From positions 1 to 21,625 of IMG/VR virus record IMGVR_UViG_3300006875_000200: a stretch of DNA of 21,625 nt. The stretch is one strand, 5' to 3'. The DNA is from a virus. The notes under the pieces were generated by a model. The model saw only the letters and a program-made list of their open reading frames with translations, made no database searches and was not told where the DNA came from. Shown here piece by piece: positions 3,807 through 21,625 of the stretch (positions are counted from its first letter, which is position 1; the number at the start of each line of letters is the position of its first letter). The position numbers and the translations under genes were made by a program.

Positions 3807-6254
3807 TTATGGAAGCTGATCGTATAAATTAGTGAACCCAAGAGAATCTAATCCCATTGTTATTCCACCTTTCATACATGCATAAAGCAATTCAAACTCC
3901 GATGATTCGTAACTTCCAGTCCAATAATTTTGAGGTGGGGTTATTGGTGTTTTTCTTGGAAATGGGTCTGATGATACGAAAGGATATGGTTTATTTTCCA
4001 TACCTTCCACAAAATCTGTTCCTAATCTAACATCAAACCAACCACTCGGTTGAGTGCTCTGGTATGGCATCGCACAATATCCCAAACCACTGTGCATGTA
4101 ATCGACAATAGTTGCATTCAATGCTAACATTAATGGAAAATGATAAAACAATCTAAATCTTCTATCTTGATTCCAAGGAACTCCTGTGGCAGCAGGATCA
4201 TTATAGTTTCCATATTTTGTTCCTTGCACTTTTTTCCATTTTAAAGAGGTTCCATCATGTTCTATAAATGTTTGATAATAAAACGGATAAACATCTAAAA
4301 ATTCATTATTTACTTCTGGATTTTCATGTGAAAGTATTTCTCCAAGTTTTTTTCTACCATTTGATTTCCATATACTTTCGACATAATCTCTTCCATATTT
4401 TCGTTGAGCGCATAATAAATCAAAACTAGAAGAATATAAATCAGGTGCAGCATCATCATCATTACACCAGTGCATTGGCGCAGGGTCATTCTTAAATCTT
4501 TGTTGTTCAGATTGTCTATTTTCCCATTTAAATGAATAAAATACAGAATGTCTTTCAACTCCAAATAAAACACCTTTGTCTGGATTTGGGCTAGAAATGC
4601 CTCTAGTATAATTATATTGGTCTTTAGCCCAACTAAAAGGTATATTTTCAACAAAACTTACACCAGATGGTAAAACATTATCCCATGTTAAATAATCTGG
4701 TCCTTTGAATGTATGATAAGTTCTTTCTGTTAAAATTGAAGCATCAAAGAAAACATGAGCAAATCCATCAATAGGAGATTTGAATTTTTCCTTCCAGTGA
4801 GAAACGGCAGCATTAAATCTCCATTTCATGTATCTTACATTTTCTGGAACTGTTGGATCTAGATAAAGATTATCTGGAACTCTAGGCATACCATGCATAC
4901 CACCAAGATGTGCAATAAATTCTATCTTGTCTCCCCAGTCCAAGCTTAATTGATTTAAACTATCTAAATTTGCTTGAAAGTATCCATAAGAAAGTCCTCT
5001 AAATCCAGTAAATTTATTCCAATAATTAAAAGGAATACCCGATGGATTAAAGGTCGTATCTACTAAATTTGGTCTAGAATTTATTGATTGTCCATTATTC
5101 AACACCATTGTTTCTATATTAAAGTTAAGAGTAATACCTTCACCACTCCACCAACCACCATTCCAAGTTATTCCAGTAGGAAATGGTAAGAAAGCAGGTC
5201 CAACCTTTATTGCATACGGATATCCACCATTGTTATGATTATTGCCATTGTAATCAATAGGAAAAGGAACAGTTCCAACAGGGAAACTTAAATCCCTATG
5301 TAAATCATTTAATTTACTGTCAGCAACACCATCAACAAGAATACCAAGTGAAGCATCTCTGGAAGTATTTACAGGATCTGGTAATAAATCTCGTATGGTT
5401 GTGGATTCTTTAGTCAAAAGATACTGATCGTATCGCCAATCATCACCAGTATATCTATTGGTTAACCAAGGATATCCTCTTTGTCTTCCAATAGTAGCCC
5501 ACAATCCAACACCAGTATACATTGGACTCTTAAATGCACCATACGGAGTATGAATATTTGCTCTTTCAATTTTATTTTCTATAAGTTTTGAAGGATTTAA
5601 AGTTAAACATTTTGAGTGAATTTCATTTGGATTTAATGTATCTGGCCACCATCTAAAACTCGGTGCTAAATTAGAAAAAGCAGCTGCTCCGCCGCCTTCA
5701 TAATAATATACAGATTGTGTTGCAATTCCAGCAAAATATTTTTCCACAAATCTGTGATTTGCTTGTTCTGGATTTCTTGATCGCTCATACGGAGAATATT
5801 GAGAATGAACAGCACTTGCAAAGTTTTTAGGATTGGTGAATATATCAAAATATCCTGTTGGATTTATTGTTGTGTATCTAAAAAGTTGATCCGCTATTGG
5901 ATCGCTTCCATCAAATGGATTTTTAGATTCTTGAACACCCAATGCAGATATTGTTGCAAGTTTTCCTTGTTCATCGGATACATTTGTCCAAGTTGGCTCA
6001 TATCTTGAAATTAAATAATTAAAAACCTTATTATATTTTTCTTCAAATGAAATTTCATTTGTTGGAATAGGTTGCCTAACATCACCTTGAATTGGATTTG
6101 GAGATAATGTTCCAGATGGTAAAACAATTCTTGAATTAAAAGGTGGTTTTGATAACGGAGAATTTGATACGATTGACTGAGGTTTTGCCATATTTGTTCT
6201 CTTAAATAAATTTTCAATAAACTCAATTATGATTAATATTGTTTTTTTAAACAT
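3807..6254 (-). CDS. Large protein of unknown function, possible TIM-barrel fold
   Basis: An 815-aa protein that matches no family I recognise. It is rich in Trp, Tyr, Phe, Asn and Pro, with long stretches of loop-and-strand character. Around residues 440-590 strands alternate with helices: KIEFIAHLGG, a long helix ending HWKEKF, GFAHVFFDAS, GVSFVENIPF and GVLFGVERHS. This suggests a glycosidase-like (beta/alpha) barrel with D and E at strand ends, but only as a weak inference. The ATG at 6254 overlaps the upstream nuclease gene by 8 bases and adds a 21-residue hydrophobic/basic leader. An alternative ATG at 6191 (MAKPQS) follows TTAAGAGAACAAAT, similar to the sequence before the gene at 34. 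Neighbours (glycosyltransferase, cohesin-like protein) suggest a surface or carbohydrate role. Confidence 0.6.
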   Translation of the reverse strand: MFKKTILIIIEFIENLFKRTNMAKPQSIVSNSPLSKPPFNSRIVLPSGTLSPNPIQGDVRQPIPTNEISFEEKYNKVFNYLISRYEPTWTNVSDEQGKLATISALGVQESKNPFDGSDPIADQLFRYTTINPTGYFDIFTNPKNFASAVHSQYSPYERSRNPEQANHRFVEKYFAGIATQSVYYYEGGGAAAFSNLAPSFRWWPDTLNPNEIHSKCLTLNPSKLIENKIERANIHTPYGAFKSPMYTGVGLWATIGRQRGYPWLTNRYTGDDWRYDQYLLTKESTTIRDLLPDPVNTSRDASLGILVDGVADSKLNDLHRDLSFPVGTVPFPIDYNGNNHNNGGYPYAIKVGPAFLPFPTGITWNGGWWSGEGITLNFNIETMVLNNGQSINSRPNLVDTTFNPSGIPFNYWNKFTGFRGLSYGYFQANLDSLNQLSLDWGDKIEFIAHLGGMHGMPRVPDNLYLDPTVPENVRYMKWRFNAAVSHWKEKFKSPIDGFAHVFFDASILTERTYHTFKGPDYLTWDNVLPSGVSFVENIPFSWAKDQYNYTRGISSPNPDKGVLFGVERHSVFYSFKWENRQSEQQRFKNDPAPMHWCNDDDAAPDLYSSSFDLLCAQRKYGRDYVESIWKSNGRKKLGEILSHENPEVNNEFLDVYPFYYQTFIEHDGTSLKWKKVQGTKYGNYNDPAATGVPWNQDRRFRLFYHFPLMLALNATIVDYMHSGLGYCAMPYQSTQPSGWFDVRLGTDFVEGMENKPYPFVSSDPFPRKTPITPPQNYWTGSYESSEFELLYACMKGGITMGLDSLGFTNLYDQLP

Positions 6255-9839: not shown

Positions 9840-11765
9840 TTAATTAATTAAATCTACTAGTTCACACTTATCTCCGCTACAAGCGAATGTCTGTGTGCCT
9901 GTCGTCTTATCCTCTTTCTCATATTTGGATAAGTTTGACCAATCAATATCTTTTGGCATTTTGTTTAATTCCTCAAGATATTGTTCCTTGGTGCAGTCCT
10001 GATATGGTGCTTGTCGATATGAATGGTCCGAGTGTGGAAGAAATGAGATACCTGATATCTCATCAAAGTGTCTATACACCCAAGCACCAACTTCCATCCA
10101 TTCATGTTCTTTGACTGTAATAGTAATACTGGGCTTGTGTTCGCACCAGTATCGTTGATATGTTAACCATAAATTTAAATGTTCAATTGCTGATAAATCA
10201 TCTCGTGTTATAGAACCTTCTGCTTTCATGGGGAAAGAAAATACCATAGTATGGTCTGGTTTCATTACACATGGTTCATTTGGAAATCCCATATCCATCA
10301 TCATCTGACATAATGGGTCTTTTCTATCCGCACGAACAGTACGAATATAATATTCGTTATGACGAGGATGAATGCCTGATGCAGCATCTGTAAGCTGTGA
10401 TACAGTGCCCGATGGTTTTACACAAGTAATGGAGGCAGAAGGATTAATTCCAATCTTTGTTGACCATTCCTTGTTTGTATCAATTGCTACTTGCTTCAAA
10501 ATAATTAATGAATTTCCTACATCAGATGAGCGCATCATTGGATTGTCTAGTATACCAGTTAGTGAAACTCCAAGTAATGCTTCTTCTTCACAATTCTTTT
10601 TCCAAGAGGAAGAAAGATATGGGAAGTGTGTCAAACTTGCTTGCCAAGTTCCAAGAATTGTCGCAAGACGAACTTTTCTACGAAGAGAATCTATGTCATC
10701 TTCCTTACGAACAATCACTTCTGTTAAATTACAGAATTGTTTATCACGAAGAATAATCTCAGAGCAAGGATTTGTTCCGAAGTCGTGATTTGGATTTCTT
10801 CTGTCTCCTAATTTCGCAACAGTTTTTTTGCACGCTTCACGGTTAAAAATGCCTCGTTCTCCACTTTTACTTTTGTAGAGAGACACCCATTCTTCCATAA
10901 AAGTTCCAATTTCTGGCTTTTCCTTATAAGCAACTGAATTATTTGCCAAGGCTCGTTGAGGATTAGACTCCCACCAAGCTCCTGTCTTAGCTTCTCGCAT
11001 TCTCTCGTCTGTGAGGTTGGACAGAGAAATAAGCGCAGAACGGCGCACGCCTCCGACAACGACAATCTCCGCGATCTTACAAACAATATCGTGACATTCG
11101 ATGGAAGTAAGTTTTCTTCCCGCCGCTCTTGTAAAAGTTTCCACGGTGAATTTGAATAAATCGTTGAGAGGTCTTGGCCCCGAAGCTCTACCTCCAAAGG
11201 TTTTGAGTCGAGCTCCAGCAGGACGAATTTTAGACATATCCCATTTTGGAATTTGACCTCCAACAAGAAGGGATACGAGTTCTCTATACGCTTTAGCCCA
11301 ACCAATCTTGCTGTCCTGTACAGCAATAATGGTTTCAGAATCAGTAAATTGTTCAGCGATTGTAGGAAGTTTTTCCACATATTGACGCTCCACACTAAAT
11401 CCTACACCAGTACCACACATTAAAATATAAAGTATTTCATCAAATGCACGAATATTGTTTACAGATACATACGAGCAATTATATCCTGCCGTATTGTCTC
11501 TTTCCAAAGCTTCTCCTGCGGTCATCAATGCGCGCATGGATGGCATAATTTCCAAATTTAAAACAGCATCTTGTAATTCTTTTCTAAGTTCAGGGGTAAC
11601 TGTAAAATTTCTATTGCCCTTTAAATTCTTTTCAAAAAAATCAAAATAGCGATTTACAGTTTCGCTCCAAGTTTCTCTCCTCTTCTCACTTTCTAACCAT
11701 CTGCTGTAACGCGAAAGATGGATAAATTGTTGATAAGAGGTAGGAAGATTTACATCATCACTCAT
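9840..11765 (-). CDS. nrdJ: Adenosylcobalamin-dependent (class II) ribonucleoside-triphosphate reductase
   Basis: A 641-aa single-chain reductase that makes deoxyribonucleotides from ribonucleotides with coenzyme B12. The N-terminus (YQQFIHLSRYSRWL, residues 11-24) is typical of the monomeric Lactobacillus-type RTPR. Catalytic residues are visible: C97 and C345 as the redox pair, NPCSEI at 332-337 with C334 as the thiyl-radical Cys and E336 beside it, and a C-terminal CSGDKC (C629/C634) shuttle pair. It is about 100 residues shorter than the 739-aa Lactobacillus enzyme. An AAAAGGAG site precedes the ATG. Lying between thyX and the barrel gene in the replication operon, it supplies dNTPs. Dependence on B12 implies a host that makes or imports the cofactor, and it frees the phage from needing a small subunit. 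Confidence 0.93.
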   Translation of the reverse strand: MSDDVNLPTSYQQFIHLSRYSRWLESEKRRETWSETVNRYFDFFEKNLKGNRNFTVTPELRKELQDAVLNLEIMPSMRALMTAGEALERDNTAGYNCSYVSVNNIRAFDEILYILMCGTGVGFSVERQYVEKLPTIAEQFTDSETIIAVQDSKIGWAKAYRELVSLLVGGQIPKWDMSKIRPAGARLKTFGGRASGPRPLNDLFKFTVETFTRAAGRKLTSIECHDIVCKIAEIVVVGGVRRSALISLSNLTDERMREAKTGAWWESNPQRALANNSVAYKEKPEIGTFMEEWVSLYKSKSGERGIFNREACKKTVAKLGDRRNPNHDFGTNPCSEIILRDKQFCNLTEVIVRKEDDIDSLRRKVRLATILGTWQASLTHFPYLSSSWKKNCEEEALLGVSLTGILDNPMMRSSDVGNSLIILKQVAIDTNKEWSTKIGINPSASITCVKPSGTVSQLTDAASGIHPRHNEYYIRTVRADRKDPLCQMMMDMGFPNEPCVMKPDHTMVFSFPMKAEGSITRDDLSAIEHLNLWLTYQRYWCEHKPSITITVKEHEWMEVGAWVYRHFDEISGISFLPHSDHSYRQAPYQDCTKEQYLEELNKMPKDIDWSNLSKYEKEDKTTGTQTFACSGDKCELVDLIN

Positions 11766-16122: not shown

Positions 16123-17274
16123 TCATTCAAATAAACTTTCAAGTGTTGACTTTTGTTCCATTTGCCAACCGATTGCATTTACAATTGTGGAGAGAGGGTC
16201 AATAAACGACTTCTCAAAATGCATGTTGTAATCCACATATCCTTCAATTTTGAATTCCTTTGGTACTACTGAAGGAAACGATAGTACCTGGTCTTCACCC
16301 TTAAATCCACCAAGAGGATTTGGTTTCTTTAGATGAAGATATTTAATCTTCTCACCTTCACCAACCATTCTATACTTCTTATCTAGTCCTAGTTTTTGAA
16401 TGTGGTGATTGTAAATCAAAGCACCCTTGACCGCAATAGGAGTAGATTTCTTATAGATTTGATATGGGTCTGCATACTTATCCATTCCATTCACGGAACG
16501 AGGAAATGCAATAACTTCCATTGGCATTTTCATAAACCGAGTTTTGAAGTTTTGAACATATTCGATAAGCGTATTGCAGTCTTTGTTTAATATGATATCA
16601 ATTGCTTTTTCCAACTCTTCTCGCACAACCTTCGGTGTAGAGCTTCGGGTAGTCTCAATACCCATGATTTTTAATTTAGGAGAAGTATAACGAACTCCTT
16701 CTGAATCCCAAACATTCAACATATATCGCTTCTTGGCAGTCCATACACCCTTGTTTGCGATGACTTCTCGACCCATCTTCATCTTATTCTCATACGCATT
16801 CATAAGATTTGCAAGTTCTTCAAACTTCTTATCAATGAATGGAACAACCACTTCCTCTGCAAACTTATCCAAGAAATCAACAACGGTTTTATTATCAGGC
16901 AAGGAAACTGGTTTACCATCAAAAAGACCCTTGTTAGGATAAATCTTCTTGACAATTGCATCAAGGCAAAGATAAACAGAATCAGTGTCTGACGCCACAA
17001 CATAATCAAAATCAGCAGTGCCTACCATCTTGTTGATGTATCTGTTAAGTTCTTGTCCAATCCATTGAATAGACAACTGACCAGACAGAGTGATTGCCTC
17101 TGCGAGTTCAGTTGAATAATATCGGAACCATTCGTTTCCAATAGCGCCGTATGCTGAATTAAGTTGAATCTTACGAACAAGTTGAAAGTTATGATATTTT
17201 GAAATGTCATATTCAAATTGTTTCTTCAACGACAATAATTCGTCGTTTGTCATCTTACTGTAGTCTTTTGACAT
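16123..17274 (-). CDS. 43: C-terminal half of a split family B DNA polymerase (gp43-like)
   Basis: A 383-aa protein matching only the C-terminal part of T4 gp43: motif B KIQLNSAYGAIGNEWFRYY (35-53), motif C ASDTDSVY (94-101) with the two catalytic Asp, KKRY at 181-184, then the thumb, ending in SLFE like a clamp-binding tail. The exonuclease domain, motif A (DxxSLYPS) and most of the fingers are missing, and nothing upstream in the window encodes them. It starts cleanly at ATG 17274 behind a GAGG site, right after a terminator, so it is a separate gene and not a broken ORF. No intein-like sequence precedes motif B. A separate N-terminal subunit must exist elsewhere if the polymerase is active. 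First gene of the replication operon. Confidence 0.92.
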   Translation of the reverse strand: MSKDYSKMTNDELLSLKKQFEYDISKYHNFQLVRKIQLNSAYGAIGNEWFRYYSTELAEAITLSGQLSIQWIGQELNRYINKMVGTADFDYVVASDTDSVYLCLDAIVKKIYPNKGLFDGKPVSLPDNKTVVDFLDKFAEEVVVPFIDKKFEELANLMNAYENKMKMGREVIANKGVWTAKKRYMLNVWDSEGVRYTSPKLKIMGIETTRSSTPKVVREELEKAIDIILNKDCNTLIEYVQNFKTRFMKMPMEVIAFPRSVNGMDKYADPYQIYKKSTPIAVKGALIYNHHIQKLGLDKKYRMVGEGEKIKYLHLKKPNPLGGFKGEDQVLSFPSVVPKEFKIEGYVDYNMHFEKSFIDPLSTIVNAIGWQMEQKSTLESLFE

Positions 17275-17290
17275 TTAATCCTCGTTCACA

Positions 17291-17296
17291 ATTATA
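17291..17296 (-). promoter_or_regulatory. Possible -10 box for the replication operon
   Basis: TATAAT on the minus strand, with TG directly before it, lies between a terminator and the polymerase gene. A weak TTGTGC lies 16 bases upstream, inside the terminator stem. The predicted start would be close to the GAGG site. A promoter is needed here if the terminator works, but the box itself is weakly supported. Confidence 0.4.
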
Positions 17297-17300
17297 CATC

Positions 17301-17331
17301 AATAAAAAATCCGCACAAGGATTACTTGTGC
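17301..17331 (-). terminator. Terminator after the metallophosphoesterase
   Basis: On the minus strand a 7-bp stem GCACAAG/CTTGTGC with loop TAATC is followed by GGATTTTTTATT. The stop codon TAA of the metallophosphoesterase lies in the loop, so the end of the gene and the terminator are the same bases. Confidence 0.8.
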
Positions 17332-17873
17332 AGATTATAAAGTTCAAGAATTCTCTCTATCGCTATTGGTTTATAGTTTAAACTTTCAGAGTCAACACCA
17401 ATATCAAATCTCATAAATTCACCCTCTCTTGGTTTTGTGATAAATCCAAGTTTTCCATGGCAATGACCATGAAGATTTATTGGACAGGATTTATTCCATG
17501 TGTGAAGAGGATAATGAGAAAGGCAGATACCGTTTTTCTTGTAGTTGAGTTCAAGATAAGTATTTACACTTTTAAATTTTGCCTTCTTAAGAAATTCAGA
17601 AGTTGGTTTTGGATCGTGATTTCCAAGAACTAAATGAATACTCTTGCATTTTAGATGGTCAAGAATTTCATTTGTTTTTTTTAGCCAATGAATATTTCTA
17701 TCCATGCAAAAATCACCAAGATGGTACAGGGTGTCTTTCTTTGTAACCACCGAATTAATATTCTCAATAAGAGACTTATTCATCTCTGCTACATTTTCGT
17801 AGATAAGATGACGGTCGGTGTATTTAAGAATGTTGTTGTGGTTAAAGTGTGTGTCACTTATGAAGTATATCAT
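17322..17873 (-). CDS. Calcineurin-like metallophosphoesterase
   Basis: A 183-aa two-metal phosphoesterase. All family motifs are present: SDTHFNH (D7, H9), GDF (D54), GNHD (84-87), SHYP (H120) and HGHCHG (H135, H137). It is the short, single-domain form common in phages. The substrate may be a nucleotide, a cyclic nucleotide, RNA or a phosphoprotein and cannot be told from sequence. Its ATG overlaps the previous stop as ATGA, and its stop codon lies in a terminator. An anti-defence role (breaking signalling nucleotides) is possible but is only a guess. Confidence 0.88.
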   Translation of the reverse strand: MIYFISDTHFNHNNILKYTDRHLIYENVAEMNKSLIENINSVVTKKDTLYHLGDFCMDRNIHWLKKTNEILDHLKCKSIHLVLGNHDPKPTSEFLKKAKFKSVNTYLELNYKKNGICLSHYPLHTWNKSCPINLHGHCHGKLGFITKPREGEFMRFDIGVDSESLNYKPIAIERILELYNLHK

Positions 17874-18070: not shown

Positions 18071-18339
18071 TTTGTATCCAATCTGTACAAAACTATATCT
18101 CTTTCCCCAAGGTCTGTATCTTTCCAACGAATCCAATAACCATCACGAATTAAATCATTCATGGCATTTACTTGATATTCTTTGAAAAAAGAAATCCTGT
18201 TGTCTTTATTTCTAATCACATCAAGAACTTCATACTCTACATCCACATACCAACCAGCGCAATGTATATCTTCAGAATATTTTGATATTGCGTCTTCAGT
18301 TATTTCTTTCAAGTGTTTTAGTCTTAAGGTATTTACCAT
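18067..18339 (-). CDS. Small orphan protein
   Basis: A 90-aa protein, charged and apparently soluble, with a helical N-terminus (LRLKHLKEITEDAISKY) and a mixed strand/helix remainder rich in Trp and Asp. GGAG five bases before ATG 18339 sets the start; the longer reading would begin at a TTG in the ribosome site. Its first 44 bases overlap the end of the metallopeptidase gene in another frame, a larger overlap than elsewhere in this operon. I recognise no family. Confidence 0.65.
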   Translation of the reverse strand: MVNTLRLKHLKEITEDAISKYSEDIHCAGWYVDVEYEVLDVIRNKDNRISFFKEYQVNAMNDLIRDGYWIRWKDTDLGERDIVLYRLDTK

Positions 18340-18622
18340 TTTTATCTCCAAACATTTTAATTATAGCTTCAGAAATTATAGATGCAGTGTTTCCAACTGC
18401 TTCTTCACAGAGCTCAGGGCGAGATGCATGCAAAACTTCATGTACCAAAGTGTCAAGCGTATCTTTCGTATTAAGGTCATTTCTTATCCAAATCTCAGGA
18501 GCTTTAATTGTATGGTCATAAGCATCATCACACTCACCATAGGACTCTGGGAGATATTTAGGATCGACTATTTTGATTGTCCAAACCTTATTGTCGATTT
18601 TTAATTTAATTTTGCTTTTCAT
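18296..18622 (-). CDS. Small HExxH zinc metallopeptidase-like protein
   Basis: A 108-aa protein with LVHEVLHA (59-66), a zinc HExxH motif with H61, E62 and H65, and an acidic LCEEAVG (71-77) that could supply the third ligand, as in minimal gluzincins. The part before it (YGECDDAYDHTIKAPEIWI) fits the strand that borders the active site in these small peptidases. The target is unknown. The ATG lies 4 bases after the tRNA-Thr 3' end, and no ribosome site is evident, so it probably relies on tRNA processing or a structured leader. Confidence 0.7.
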   Translation of the reverse strand: MKSKIKLKIDNKVWTIKIVDPKYLPESYGECDDAYDHTIKAPEIWIRNDLNTKDTLDTLVHEVLHASRPELCEEAVGNTASIISEAIIKMFGDKNGKYLKTKTLERNN

Positions 18623-18625
18623 AAA

Positions 18626-18697
18626 AGCCGCCTGTGAGATTCGAACTCACGACCTATGCTTTACAAAAGCATGGCTCTACCGCTGAGCTAAGGTGGC
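18626..18697 (-). tRNA. tRNA-Thr (TGT)
   Basis: Cloverleaf on the minus strand: acceptor GCCACCT/AGGCGGC with an A.C mismatch at the fourth pair, D-stem GCTC/GAGC, anticodon loop TTTGTAA (anticodon TGT), T-stem GTGAG/CTCAC with TTCGAAT. No encoded CCA. It lies between the ParB-like gene and the metallopeptidase and is probably cut from their shared transcript. Confidence 0.93.
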
Positions 18698-18704
18698 TAG
18701 AGTT

Positions 18705-19916
18705 TTACTCTTCTAGATTAAGAATATTATTAAGTTTGTTGGTTGCTACTTTCTTTCCAACAATCTTAACCGAAGTGGTATGTGGTGTAGTAAGATTGGT
18801 CTTGAGTCGTTCGTCCACTGGAATAATATCTCGTCCAGAAGCAATCTCATCAAGAGTTGCAGCCGCAAATCCAATAACTTCATAAATCTTATTCTTTGGG
18901 CGAATATTTTTGCCAGATCCACTCAAATCGTATGCACGGATTGCAGTATTATAGCAATTATCAAGATCACGAATAAGTGCTCGACTCTTTTTCTTCAAAT
19001 CATTTTCATCTTGAGTCTGAAAGTCATTAACATTAAATACAATCTTTTGACGCCGACCAGTTTCAGAATAATCAGCAATCATTCGACCATAACCTCGGGT
19101 TGGATCGGAACAATCAAACAAATGATATTCTCCCTTTCCAAATTTATTTAGAATTTCATTTCCACCAGACTTCAAAGCCCTCTTGAATTCCTTTTGAGTG
19201 CGAATAACAACATCAGTTCTACCTTGCCTCTGTTGTGCAATTCTAATAATTTCAGTCAAAGTCGCATCGGATTTTGTGAAAGAAATATAATCAGGATTCA
19301 TTGAAATAGTATGACGAATCTCATCTTCATCTACTTCACCATACTTATCAATAAAGGTTCCATCACTGATGCCAGATGCAATCACCTTTGCAACATCATA
19401 CTTTGTAGCCTTTGTTTGTACAAGATGATCCACATTAGACTTTAGACTATAAAAATTGATGACCGAATCACGGGAAAACTTGCCATTCTTCTTTGCAGAA
19501 ATAATGTTAAAAACAAACTTTTCCATACCCAATGACATCATTGCTTCTGACCTGTGGTGTCCCTGAACAAGTCGATACTTCTTATTATTATATTTCTTCA
19601 TCTCTGTGCCATCATTAGCAATGACACATGGAAGGGGTTGACCAATACACCAACCTCGGGTTTCAAAATCTGCCTTTAGACCCTTAATGGCGACTTCATT
19701 TGCCTTATCTTCTCGGACCTCATTGGTGCCATCATTCTGAAAGAAGATATCATCAAAATCAATTTCTTTGCGGTCAACAATCGTGACGCCTGGAACAGAC
19801 CCTGATGCCAATTCACCCAACTTGAAGTTTTCAAAAGTCTTCAAACTTACAGTAGTAATGTCAATAAAATTTGACATAGTTAAAAATTTTCTGCCACTAA
19901 GTGGCATATTAAGCAA
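18705..19916 (-). CDS. ParB-like N-terminal domain protein
   Basis: A 403-aa protein. Residues about 67-140 form a ParB/Srx-like domain: VREDKANEVAIKGL, then GQPLPCVIA, then YRLVQGHHRSEAMMSLG with the GHHR box (119-122) that in ParB binds CTP and in relatives forms a nuclease or kinase site. The C-terminal two thirds are helical and charged, with no domain I recognise. A GGAGGTAAAA site precedes TTG 19916, so I kept this start; ATG 19907 and ATG 19877 are alternatives. It is the first gene behind a strong sigma70-type promoter with an overlapping palindrome, so early expression and repression are likely. Phage ParB-like proteins have varied roles; partitioning is not implied. Confidence 0.75.
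   Translation of the reverse strand: MLNMPLSGRKFLTMSNFIDITTVSLKTFENFKLGELASGSVPGVTIVDRKEIDFDDIFFQNDGTNEVREDKANEVAIKGLKADFETRGWCIGQPLPCVIANDGTEMKKYNNKKYRLVQGHHRSEAMMSLGMEKFVFNIISAKKNGKFSRDSVINFYSLKSNVDHLVQTKATKYDVAKVIASGISDGTFIDKYGEVDEDEIRHTISMNPDYISFTKSDATLTEIIRIAQQRQGRTDVVIRTQKEFKRALKSGGNEILNKFGKGEYHLFDCSDPTRGYGRMIADYSETGRRQKIVFNVNDFQTQDENDLKKKSRALIRDLDNCYNTAIRAYDLSGSGKNIRPKNKIYEVIGFAAATLDEIASGRDIIPVDERLKTNLTTPHTTSVKIVGKKVATNKLNNILNLEE
19892..19906 (-). other. Hairpin at the start of the ParB-like gene
   Basis: TGCCAC TTA GTGGCA on the minus strand is a perfect 6-bp stem with a 3-base loop, 14 bases before ATG 19877 and just after TTG 19916/ATG 19907. It could mask or pause translation between the alternative starts, or be an operator. 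Confidence 0.4.
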
Positions 19917-20026: not shown

Positions 20027-20043
20027 CAATGAATGTTTAAAAA

Positions 20044-20116
20044 CTCTCTGAACTGGATTCGAACCAGTGACTTGCGAGTTAACAGCTCGCCGCTCTACCT
20101 GCTGAGCTATCAGAGA
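20044..20116 (-). tRNA. tRNA-Asn (GTT)
   Basis: Acceptor TCTCTGA/TCAGAGA with discriminator G, D-stem GCTC/GAGC, anticodon stem GCGAG/CTCGC with loop CTGTTAA (anticodon GTT), T-stem ACTGG/CCAGT. No encoded CCA. Its first bases also hold the stop codon of the small ORF upstream. Confidence 0.95.
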
Positions 20117-20223
20117 AGATATTCAATAATTAAAAAAAATGTTACCATGAACACAACGGCGGTTATTAGACCTAAAAAATAGGCATAAATCATAGAACGG
20201 TCTTCATTATCTTTTAATTGCAT
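20110..20223 (-). CDS. Possible 37-aa membrane peptide between two tRNAs
   Basis: ATG 20223 lies 2 bases after the tRNA-Tyr 3' end and the TGA stop lies in the first bases of tRNA-Asn. The product has a charged start (MQLKDNEDR) and one 20-residue hydrophobic helix (FLGLITAVVFMVTFFLIIEYLL). There is no obvious ribosome site outside the tRNA. A clean transmembrane helix filling the whole gap argues for a real gene, but it could be chance. Confidence 0.4.
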   Translation of the reverse strand: MQLKDNEDRSMIYAYFLGLITAVVFMVTFFLIIEYLL

Positions 20224-20225
20224 AA

Positions 20226-20306
20226 TGGATGATGAAGGACTTGCACCTACGAAGTCTAAGACAGCAGATTTACAGTCTGCCCCCGTTGCTGCTTGGGTAA
20301 TCATCC
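20226..20306 (-). tRNA. tRNA-Tyr (GTA)
   Basis: Acceptor GGATGAT/ATCATCC with discriminator A, anticodon stem GCAGA/TCTGC with loop CTGTAAA (anticodon GTA), and the long variable arm expected for bacterial-type tRNA-Tyr. No encoded CCA. Confidence 0.94.
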
Positions 20307-20309
20307 TCA

Positions 20310-20381
20310 AGCGGAAGACGAGATTCGAACTCGCAACATTTAGATTGGAAATCTAAAGCTCTACCGTTGAGCTACATCCGC
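20310..20381 (-). tRNA. tRNA-Gly (TCC)
   Basis: Acceptor GCGGATG/CTTCCGC with one T.T mismatch at the sixth pair, D-stem GCTC/GAGC, anticodon stem TTAGA/TCTAA with loop TTTCCAA (anticodon TCC), T-stem GCGAG/CTCGT. No encoded CCA. Confidence 0.93.
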
Positions 20382-20382
20382 A

Positions 20383-20742
20383 TCATTTCAAAGTCAAGAG
20401 ATACTTGGTCTTGTGTAATTCACCAAGCATATCGTCACGAATATTTAAAAGGTCAGTATCAGATGATTGTAGTCCCTTTGGAAGTTCATTAATCAAATAA
20501 TTTATAGCATTATCGACTACTTCTAGTGGAGTAGCTGGTTCATAATTTGCTAATGAAATATCAAAAGAAGAATCTGTTCGAATACGACCGTATTTACCAA
20601 AATATGTCTCTGCAAAAGTATCAATCAAATCATCAAGCGATTCATATAGACCACCAAGTGCTTGATGTTCTGCATAAGATTTAGTCTGCCAATGAAAAAT
20701 ACGAATTTGATTATGTAGTGTCAATAGTTTAGATACAAACAT
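20383..20742 (-). CDS. Dps/ferritin-like small phage protein
   Basis: A 119-aa helical protein. Its first 50 residues follow the Dps ferroxidase pattern: LLTLHNQIRIFHWQT with H10 and H17-W18, then H26, and DLIDTFAETYFG with D41 and E45 spaced four apart as in Dps. Dps proteins oxidise iron and protect DNA; at 119 aa this is shorter than the usual 150-170, so the four-helix bundle is cut down. A GGAGG site precedes the ATG. It lies among tRNA genes, ending 2 bases from tRNA-Gly. Iron binding is inferred from the pattern; it could be a ferritin-like fold without metal. Confidence 0.65.
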   Translation of the reverse strand: MFVSKLLTLHNQIRIFHWQTKSYAEHQALGGLYESLDDLIDTFAETYFGKYGRIRTDSSFDISLANYEPATPLEVVDNAINYLINELPKGLQSSDTDLLNIRDDMLGELHKTKYLLTLK

Positions 20743-20769
20743 CAGATGCCTCCTTTCTTATATATTCAA

Positions 20770-20840
20770 TTCCTTTGCTTGGATTCGAACCAAGAAACGA
20801 AGAACCAAAATCTCCAGTGATACCGTTTCACCACAAAGGA
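20770..20840 (-). tRNA. tRNA-Gln (TTG)
   Basis: Acceptor TCCTTTG/CAAAGGA with discriminator A, D-stem GTG/CAC, anticodon stem GGAGA/TCTTC (one G.T) with loop TTTTGGT (anticodon TTG), T-stem CTTGG/CCAAG. No encoded CCA. Only 1 base from the next tRNA. Confidence 0.93.
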
Positions 20841-20841
20841 A

Positions 20842-20923
20842 TGTCCGAGGTGGGGGTCGAACCCACATGCCGTGAAGCAATTGATTTTGAATCAATCGTG
20901 TATGCCAATTTCACCACTCAGAC
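20842..20923 (-). tRNA. tRNA-Leu (CAA)
   Basis: Acceptor GTCTGAG/CTCGGAC with one T.G pair and discriminator A, anticodon stem ATTGA/TCAAT with loop TTCAAAA (anticodon CAA), long variable arm TGCTTCACGGCA, T-stem GTGGG/CCCAC. No encoded CCA. Confidence 0.94.
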
Positions 20924-20935
20924 AAGTTTAATTAA

Positions 20936-21295
20936 TTAATCTAAGATATAATGTTGCACTCTATGACAATTAGCACAAAGAACAATACATTTATTCATTT
21001 CTTCTGTTAAAGATTCTAAAGAATGACAAGATTTGCTTAGCCTTGCTACATTTTCGTTTTTAGAATGAAGATGGTGAAAATCTAAAGCACACGCATATTC
21101 TTTATATCCACATTTATTGCAACCTTTTTCTAATTTGTATTGGTTTACAAATTCTGTATTTCTACTTCTAGTTTTTAGATTTCTTTCACGATACTTTTGT
21201 TTGTTTTGACTGTAGTATTCGTGTGCTTGTTTTTTTGTTTTTTGATAATAATCTTTTCTGTGTTGTTTTCTTTGTTCTGGATCTTTATATGGCAT
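20936..21295 (-). CDS. HNH endonuclease inside the tRNA cluster
   Basis: A 119-aa protein. The basic N-terminal half (about residues 1-50, rich in Lys, Arg, Gln and Tyr) is a probable DNA-binding arm. The HNH core follows: CNKCG (C59, C62), LDFHH (H74, H75), LCANCHRVQH (C107, C110, H111, H115), two Cys pairs holding zinc around a beta-beta-alpha metal site. Small free-standing HNH enzymes are common homing genes in T4-like phages and often sit between tRNA genes. I chose ATG 21295, 9 bases after GGAGG; the upstream ATG 21313 overlaps that site. Confidence 0.85.
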   Translation of the reverse strand: MPYKDPEQRKQHRKDYYQKTKKQAHEYYSQNKQKYRERNLKTRSRNTEFVNQYKLEKGCNKCGYKEYACALDFHHLHSKNENVARLSKSCHSLESLTEEMNKCIVLCANCHRVQHYILD

Positions 21296-21322
21296 GGTTA
21301 CAAACCTCCACATCTATATATG

Positions 21323-21337
21323 AATCCCAATGGGATT
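21323..21337. repeat. Inverted repeat at the tRNA-Leu(TAA) 3' end
   Basis: AATCCCA and TGGGATT are separated by one base. On the minus strand the tRNA 3' acceptor strand is followed directly by a copy resembling the 5' acceptor strand (TGGGATT), so the trailer could pair with the acceptor in place of the true 5' strand. Confidence 0.5.
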
Positions 21338-21411
21338 GGCGGGAGTCGAACCCGCACGCCGTTTGGCAACGCATTTTAAGTGCGTCGTGGCTGCCATTAC
21401 ACCACAATCCC
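21331..21411 (-). tRNA. tRNA-Leu (TAA)
   Basis: Acceptor GGGATTG/CAATCCC with discriminator A, anticodon stem ACGCA/TGCGT with loop CTTAAAA (anticodon TAA), long variable arm TGCCAAACGGCG, T-stem GCGGG/CCCGC. No encoded CCA. Confidence 0.95.
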
Positions 21412-21430
21412 TTTATATTCCCTTTATATT
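21409..21430. repeat. 11-bp tandem direct repeat at the 5' edge of tRNA-Leu
   Basis: CCCTTTATATT occurs twice back to back, 21409-21419 and 21420-21430. The first copy includes the first three bases of the tRNA and the second reaches the stop codon of the methyltransferase gene. Confidence 0.7.
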
Positions 21431-21625
21431 TACATTACTTTTGAACAATAATCATACATAACAATACCAGATGCCGTTCCTACATTTAGACTACGCACCG
21501 ATCCATACTGCTTGATATAAAGCAGATTTGCACACATTTGCATCACTTCCTTTGGAAGTCCTACCTGCTCTTGACCAAAGGCAATAACATAGTGAGTGTC
21601 TTTGTCCCATTTGAAACCCTCAATA
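21430..21625 (-). CDS. SpoU/TrmH-family RNA 2'-O-methyltransferase, C-terminal part
   Basis: The last 64 codons of a gene running off the window. Seen in the frame ending at TAA 21430: HYVIAFGQEQVGLPKEV, then LLYIKQYGSVRSLNV, then GTASGIVMYDYCSKVM. These match the SPOUT-class SpoU motifs 2 and 3 (G-E-x-x-G-L and the SLNV-x-x-A-x-x-I knot), which bind S-adenosylmethionine. The family methylates ribose in tRNA or rRNA. Next to seven tRNAs, the phage tRNAs or the host tRNA pool are likely targets, but this is inference. The 5' part lies beyond 21625. Confidence 0.85.
   Translation of the reverse strand, partial: IEGFKWDKDTHYVIAFGQEQVGLPKEVMQMCANLLYIKQYGSVRSLNVGTASGIVMYDYCSKVM

Follow-up and report, generated by a model that had tools for sequence, protein, structure and literature searches.

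A 43B-like gene in an uncultured T4-like virus: probable C subunit of a two-chain DNA polymerase with a tRNA island at the break

A gene encoding only the second half of a replicative DNA polymerase was found in a virus fragment, and the question raised by the locus is whether this half is a working subunit and, if so, where the other half lies. The window, i.e. the whole stretch of DNA analysed, is the entire IMG/VR record of 21,625 bases. The gene concerned is the following:

16123..17274, minus strand: C half of a T4-gp43-type family B DNA polymerase (43B-like), from profile and homology searches and PHROG_1918

The open reading frame (ORF) is intact and complete, starts with ATG and encodes 383 aa. 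It belongs to the T4-type gp43 family B by sequence and fold homology to T4/RB69 gp43. Residues 6-382 were aligned to T4 gp43 528-897 (E 1.7e-68), the C half of the T4/RB69 enzyme, and PHROG_1918 (382 positions) was spanned end to end, residues 3-383 matching positions 11-381 (E 1.6e-138). The encoded domains are the second finger helix with motif B (K-IQLNSAYG), the palm with motif C (SDTDS) and the thumb. Both alignments thus agree with an earlier note on this DNA, in which the gene was read as encoding only motif B, motif C and the thumb of a gp43-type polymerase. The exonuclease and motif A, described there as absent, were looked for across the 21.6-kb window and were not found. Directly after the C half, the genes of uvsX, a DnaB-type helicase and a primase were identified with Pfam and PHROG, corresponding to the T4-like replication cluster 43-uvsX-41-61. 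The dN/dS of the window C half against that of L003, the nearest related contig, was about 0.05 (dN 0.12, dS near saturation), which indicates a conserved gene and not a decaying fragment.

The scan of viral contigs (IMG/VR) for relatives resulted in 80 loci. A stand-alone C half of about 365-400 aa was detected in about 60 of these (L003-L061, L063, L064, L082), a few being interrupted or cut by the contig end. In the same clade both halves were recovered in 29 IMG/VR loci, 18 of them distinct at 95% identity, and all 29 have a separate N-half gene upstream on the same strand; the N half, about 490-510 aa, is present wherever a clade contig is long enough. It contains the exonuclease, the DxxSLYP motif A and the first finger helix; it corresponds to Pfam DNA_pol_B_exo1 plus the first part of DNA_pol_B and matches PHROG_2062. 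PHROG_2062 is a family of split N halves and PHROG_1918 a family of split C halves. A gene of this kind, with exonuclease motifs and ending in the fingers, is what the earlier note had proposed to search for, and its constant presence supports, at the level of sequence, the proposal that the active site would be built from two proteins. The dN/dS was far below 1 for the N half as well as for the C half, i.e. both are under strong purifying selection. The best fold match of the AlphaFold models of both halves was T4/RB69 gp43. In these single-chain models the palm was of low confidence in both halves (pLDDT under 50, only 17-20 sequences in the alignments), and they are usable for fold identity only; the poor palm confidence would fit a mutual dependence of the halves and would equally fit the shallow alignment, and is weak evidence.

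As the window covers only part of the genome, the C half could in principle be a leftover, or an extra paralogue without a role in replication, in a phage that encodes a complete gp43 at another locus. This is very unlikely. A complete gp43 was sought in split relatives of 156.7, 123 and 117 kb and none was found, each carrying one N and one C half; moreover, the C half lies in the gp43-uvsX-gp41 cluster, keeps its catalytic residues and is under the purifying selection mentioned above. The probability that one polymerase gene was merely cut by an assembly or frameshift artefact is close to nil. Frameshifts or internal stops do occur in L019, L061 and L082, but dozens of independent contigs from different metagenomes share one layout, in which the halves have their own starts and are kept apart by tRNAs and kilobases of genes, and this rules out the assembly error that the earlier note had considered. 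The C half of L019 (928-2082) has an internal stop near residue 305, either a real interruption or a sequencing error.

The break point was located by alignment to RB69 gp43. The N halves end at about RB69 residue 512 and the C halves start at about 527, between the two long helices of the fingers domain (residues 469-572). The RB69 positions checked were D114, E116, D222, D327, D411, Y416, R482, K486, K560, N564, Y567, D621, D623, K705 and K706. All 15 of these catalytic or dNTP-binding positions are conserved across the two chains in every one of the 15 clade members aligned with both halves, R482 and K486 being in the N chain and K560, N564, Y567, D621 and D623 in the C chain. The window ORF keeps those that fall in the C half.

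A joining of the halves into one chain, by a split intein or a (trans-)splicing intron, has precedents. Split inteins with homing nucleases are known in phage replication genes, a split PolB with an intein was reported in phage MIJ3 (PMC6892783), and a group I intron is present in 43B of Aeromonas phage 25. For the present clade such a joining appears highly improbable. Past the conserved helices the N halves extend by about 15-25 residues and the C halves by about 12-20, and all these extensions resemble the long T4-type fingertip. Intein N or C parts were not found at the break, and a split intein would have no room in extensions of only 12-25 residues, in agreement with the earlier note, which had seen no intein remnant. 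Rfam introns were absent from the window, L003, L035, L037, L053, L058, L006 and L082, and from L055 at a relaxed threshold; only tRNAs were returned. Throughout the clade the N and the C half are bounded by start and stop codons of their own, and the shortest gap between them (L037/L038) measures 166 bp and contains one tRNA-Leu.

The window gene is therefore very probably the C subunit of a two-chain, non-covalently assembled replicative polymerase of the T4 gp43 type, whose N subunit would come from a separate upstream gene. The N subunit would supply the N-terminal domain, the 3'-5' exonuclease, the first palm half, which bears motif A, and the first finger helix, which carries the two dNTP-binding basic residues. 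The two chains would be translated separately and then fold together, and with the break at the tip of the two-helix fingers a single active site would be built non-covalently. The nearest tested relative is Aeromonas phage 25, of a distant lineage, whose 43A and 43B are reported to co-purify and to have polymerase activity (PMC2988022).

What lies between the halves was recorded from the part of the insert present in the window:

17322..17873, minus strand: metallophosphoesterase (Pfam PF00149, PHROG_547)
18296-18622, minus strand: small protein with a HEVLH zinc-protease-like motif, matching only PHROGs of unknown function
18625..18698, minus strand: tRNA-Thr(TGT) of the island (tRNA/Rfam searches, as for all tRNAs below)
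18705..19916, minus strand: ParB-like protein gene (weak PHROG_4715 match; homologue in L003)
20043..20117, minus strand: tRNA-Asn(GTT)
20226..20306, minus strand: tRNA-Tyr(GTA)
20310..20381, minus strand: tRNA-Gly(TCC)
20383..20742, minus strand: DUF5856/PHROG_858 protein (Pfam and PHROG)
20769..20841, minus strand: tRNA-Gln(TTG)
20841..20924, minus strand: tRNA-Leu(CAA)
20936..21313, minus strand: free-standing HNH endonuclease inside the tRNA island (PHROG_2255, E 5e-24)
21331..21411, minus strand: tRNA-Leu(TAA), common to 28 of 29 clade loci
21430..21624, minus strand: SpoU-type RNA methylase, C-terminal 64 aa, cut by the contig edge (Pfam PF00588, E 2e-13)

The window, L003 and L053 are collinear. 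L003 carries a Ser tRNA in addition to the seven types of the window, which follow the same order in both. The window breaks off within the SpoU methylase gene; in L003, whose N half lies at 4149-5615 and C half at 9998-11146, the N half is followed after 27 nt by the 184-aa homologue. From this layout and the synteny of the insert and its tRNAs, the phage's own N half is expected to end some 0.4 kb beyond the right edge and thus probably lies just outside the window. In 13 of 18 loci compared, a SpoU-type RNA methylase gene was observed next to the tRNA island, and its product may modify the phage tRNAs.

Two features had escaped the earlier note: the break is occupied by a tRNA island, and an entire uncultured clade is fixed for the split. 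In each of the 29 two-half loci described above at least one tRNA gene separates the halves, and all 99 tRNAs detected in those loci fall in the gap, which makes up 17% of the bases. Near the polymerase of the intact sister loci no tRNA was detected (0 in 18). Some sister genomes, and also longer split-clade contigs, have tRNAs elsewhere. A mobile endonuclease at the split, which is a common but not universal trait of the 43A/43B type, is present in the window. The HNH gene sits between the two Leu tRNAs and is absent in L003, where these are 4 nt apart. An HNH gene was found with PHROG also in the gap of L055, and HNH-like homologues occur in further loci, so that free-standing nucleases are frequent in the gap; the minimal gap of L037/L038 contains no mobile endonuclease. 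In L055 (6205-10936) the polymerase is in three pieces on one contig, in the order of a 423-aa piece with the exonuclease and motif A, a Mom-like/homing-nuclease-like gene, an approximately 100-aa piece with the first finger helix, tRNA-Leu, an HNH gene and the C half. The search for a second contig with this arrangement returned only the same contig.

The split would be old in the clade in which it is fixed, and the tRNA island with its mobile HNH nucleases would be the most likely trace of the insertion that opened the gene. PMC10448857 cites work in which T4 SegB is described as a homing nuclease needed for the T4 tRNA region to be inherited preferentially. By analogy with this precedent a nuclease-driven spread of the tRNA island into the polymerase gene is plausible, cause and effect being inferred. 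It is quite conceivable, if somewhat short of probable, that the polymerase is two-chain as proposed and that the island came later, into an already split and permissive gap. The gaps of Aeromonas, Acinetobacter and Stenotrophomonas phages, ACG-2014f and L082 are without tRNA, and for phage 25 PMC2988022 leaves room for an invasion of an already split gene by the nuclease gene. In contrast, at least one gap tRNA is found in every clade member examined, Leu(TAA) is common to nearly all of them, and the minimal form is one tRNA-Leu. On these grounds, taken from sequence comparison, a gap tRNA was probably already present in the common ancestor of the sampled clade.

The following signals were found before the C half:

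17280..17283, minus strand: Shine-Dalgarno-like GAGG, 5 nt ahead of the ATG (sequence)
17291..17318, minus strand: promoter-like TTGTGC-16-TATAAT directly before the C half (9 of 12, consensus match only)
17308..17336, minus strand: terminator-like hairpin with a T run, 12 pairs, between the C half and the phosphoesterase gene upstream of it

The own start and ribosome site that had been claimed for the gene were confirmed by the ATG and the GAGG at 17283-17280. As to the probable own promoter behind a terminator, the 12-pair hairpin and the -10 TATAAT (17296-17291) are present, the -35 TTGTGC is weak and the promoter is a consensus match only, 9 of 12. The pairing of the hairpin survives a double change in L053/L004, from CTGCACAAG/CTTGTGC to CTACACAAG/CTTGTGTAG. 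Strong promoters of the form TTGACA-16/17-TATAAT ending 6-7 nt before the ATG were observed for 31 of 452 split-clade ORFs (L003-L064), compared with 49 over 68 other distances. The same spacing occurred once among 158 ORFs in intact sisters and never in the T4-like or cyanophage controls. Examples are the C halves of L034, L014 and L052, as well as L003:4149 and L003:5642; this sequence pattern suggests leaderless mRNAs, those of polymerase halves included. Among the window's own genes none has the 6-7 nt spacing. A perfect TTGACA-16-TATAAT match is located at 20017-19990 on the minus strand, downstream of tRNA-Asn and before the ParB-like gene.

The break point was compared with those of known split systems, as the earlier note had proposed for 43A/43B of Aeromonas phages. 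The fingertip break of the clade is at the same position as in Aeromonas phage 44RR2.8t, Acinetobacter phages Ac42 and Apostate, Stenotrophomonas phage IME13 and the Synechococcus cyanophage ACG-2014f. In 44RR2.8t, phage 25 and IME13 gp43 is split there into about 498 + 391 aa, in two genes on one strand, and the 44RR halves, which were tested, correspond to PHROG_2062 and PHROG_1918 as in the clade. Unlike in the clade, their gaps contain no tRNAs: the gap is about 50 bp in 44RR and IME13, and phage 25 has a nuclease gene together with the group I intron in 43B. The Aeromonas/IME13 lineage is distant from the clade (N half about 30% identity). Aeromonas phage Aeh1 was considered as a further split case and rejected, its gp43 being intact. 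In Ac42 and Apostate several kilobases of small genes lie between the halves, with a MobE nuclease gene in Apostate; the split gp43 of Acinetobacter phage ZZ1 was noted previously (PMC4177764). The gap of the Acinetobacter phages is also without tRNAs, in contrast to the clade, and their polymerases group with the T4 type in the tree.

ACG-2014f was the best-ranked isolate match to the window ORF (50.7% over 99%), and no isolate at 60% identity or more was found. Its halves have nearly the same termini as those of the clade, the N half ending ...AEMKRRGVL and the C half starting ...DYSKLSDKQL. About 0.4 kb separates them; the gap holds small ORFs and lacks tRNAs, and in the tree the polymerase groups with the intact cyanophage-type ones. 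The annotated C half of ACG-2014f (L109) starts with GTG just before motif B, while an open frame continues upstream of it and the homology reaches about 90 nt further. The start has probably been annotated too far downstream, although there is no standard start codon in that stretch of about 90 nt. The intact sisters, of uncultured phages (L062, L065-L081), show about 60% identity in the C half; their fingertip is built differently, and no tRNA lies near the gene. Their polymerase is one uninterrupted chain about 810-860 aa long (complete ones measure 843-877 aa from stop to stop); L062, L071 and L078 run off the contig in the same long frame. In archaea a family B polymerase is also encoded in two genes (Methanobacteriales; Nanoarchaeum equitans; PMC4104785). 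These belong to an unrelated lineage with a proposed intein origin and are likened to the clade by the two-gene state. Relatives of the clade were sought in bacterial genomes as a route to the host, and none were found.

The gp43 tree was built without the fingertip columns. The window grouped with L003 and L053 (100/100), and this group was nested among 16 split rows that form one clade (100/100). The split groups are Aeromonas, Acinetobacter, ACG-2014f, L082 and the window's clade. The split label required 6 changes, at least 5 of them forced by the starred branches; repeated splitting and an old split with re-fusions would both fit.

A split of gp43 at the fingertip was already known; new are the lineage, the fixation across the clade and the constant tRNA island. 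No description of a constant tRNA island in a split gp43 was found in the literature searched, most subscription journals lying outside it. A broader reading is put forward only tentatively and seems, as a whole, rather unlikely: the fingertip of gp43 may be a recurrent insertion hotspot, at which the essential polymerase has repeatedly and stably become two-chain (in L055 apparently three-chain) and the tRNA island has become a fixed resident of the clade, while expression of the chains from separate, often leaderless-type promoters might permit independent control of the exonuclease-bearing and thumb-bearing subunits.

For the family, the finding means that a two-chain replicative polymerase is more than a curiosity of some isolates: it is probably fixed in an entire environmental lineage of T4-like phages, and a break at the same fingertip is seen at about five separate points of the gp43 tree. 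The clade will be miscounted by pipelines that take short polymerase ORFs for fragments or rely on full-length gp43 as a marker. The constant tRNA island in the polymerase locus would be a clear case for studying how essential phage genes come to be invaded by mobile nucleases and tRNA genes.
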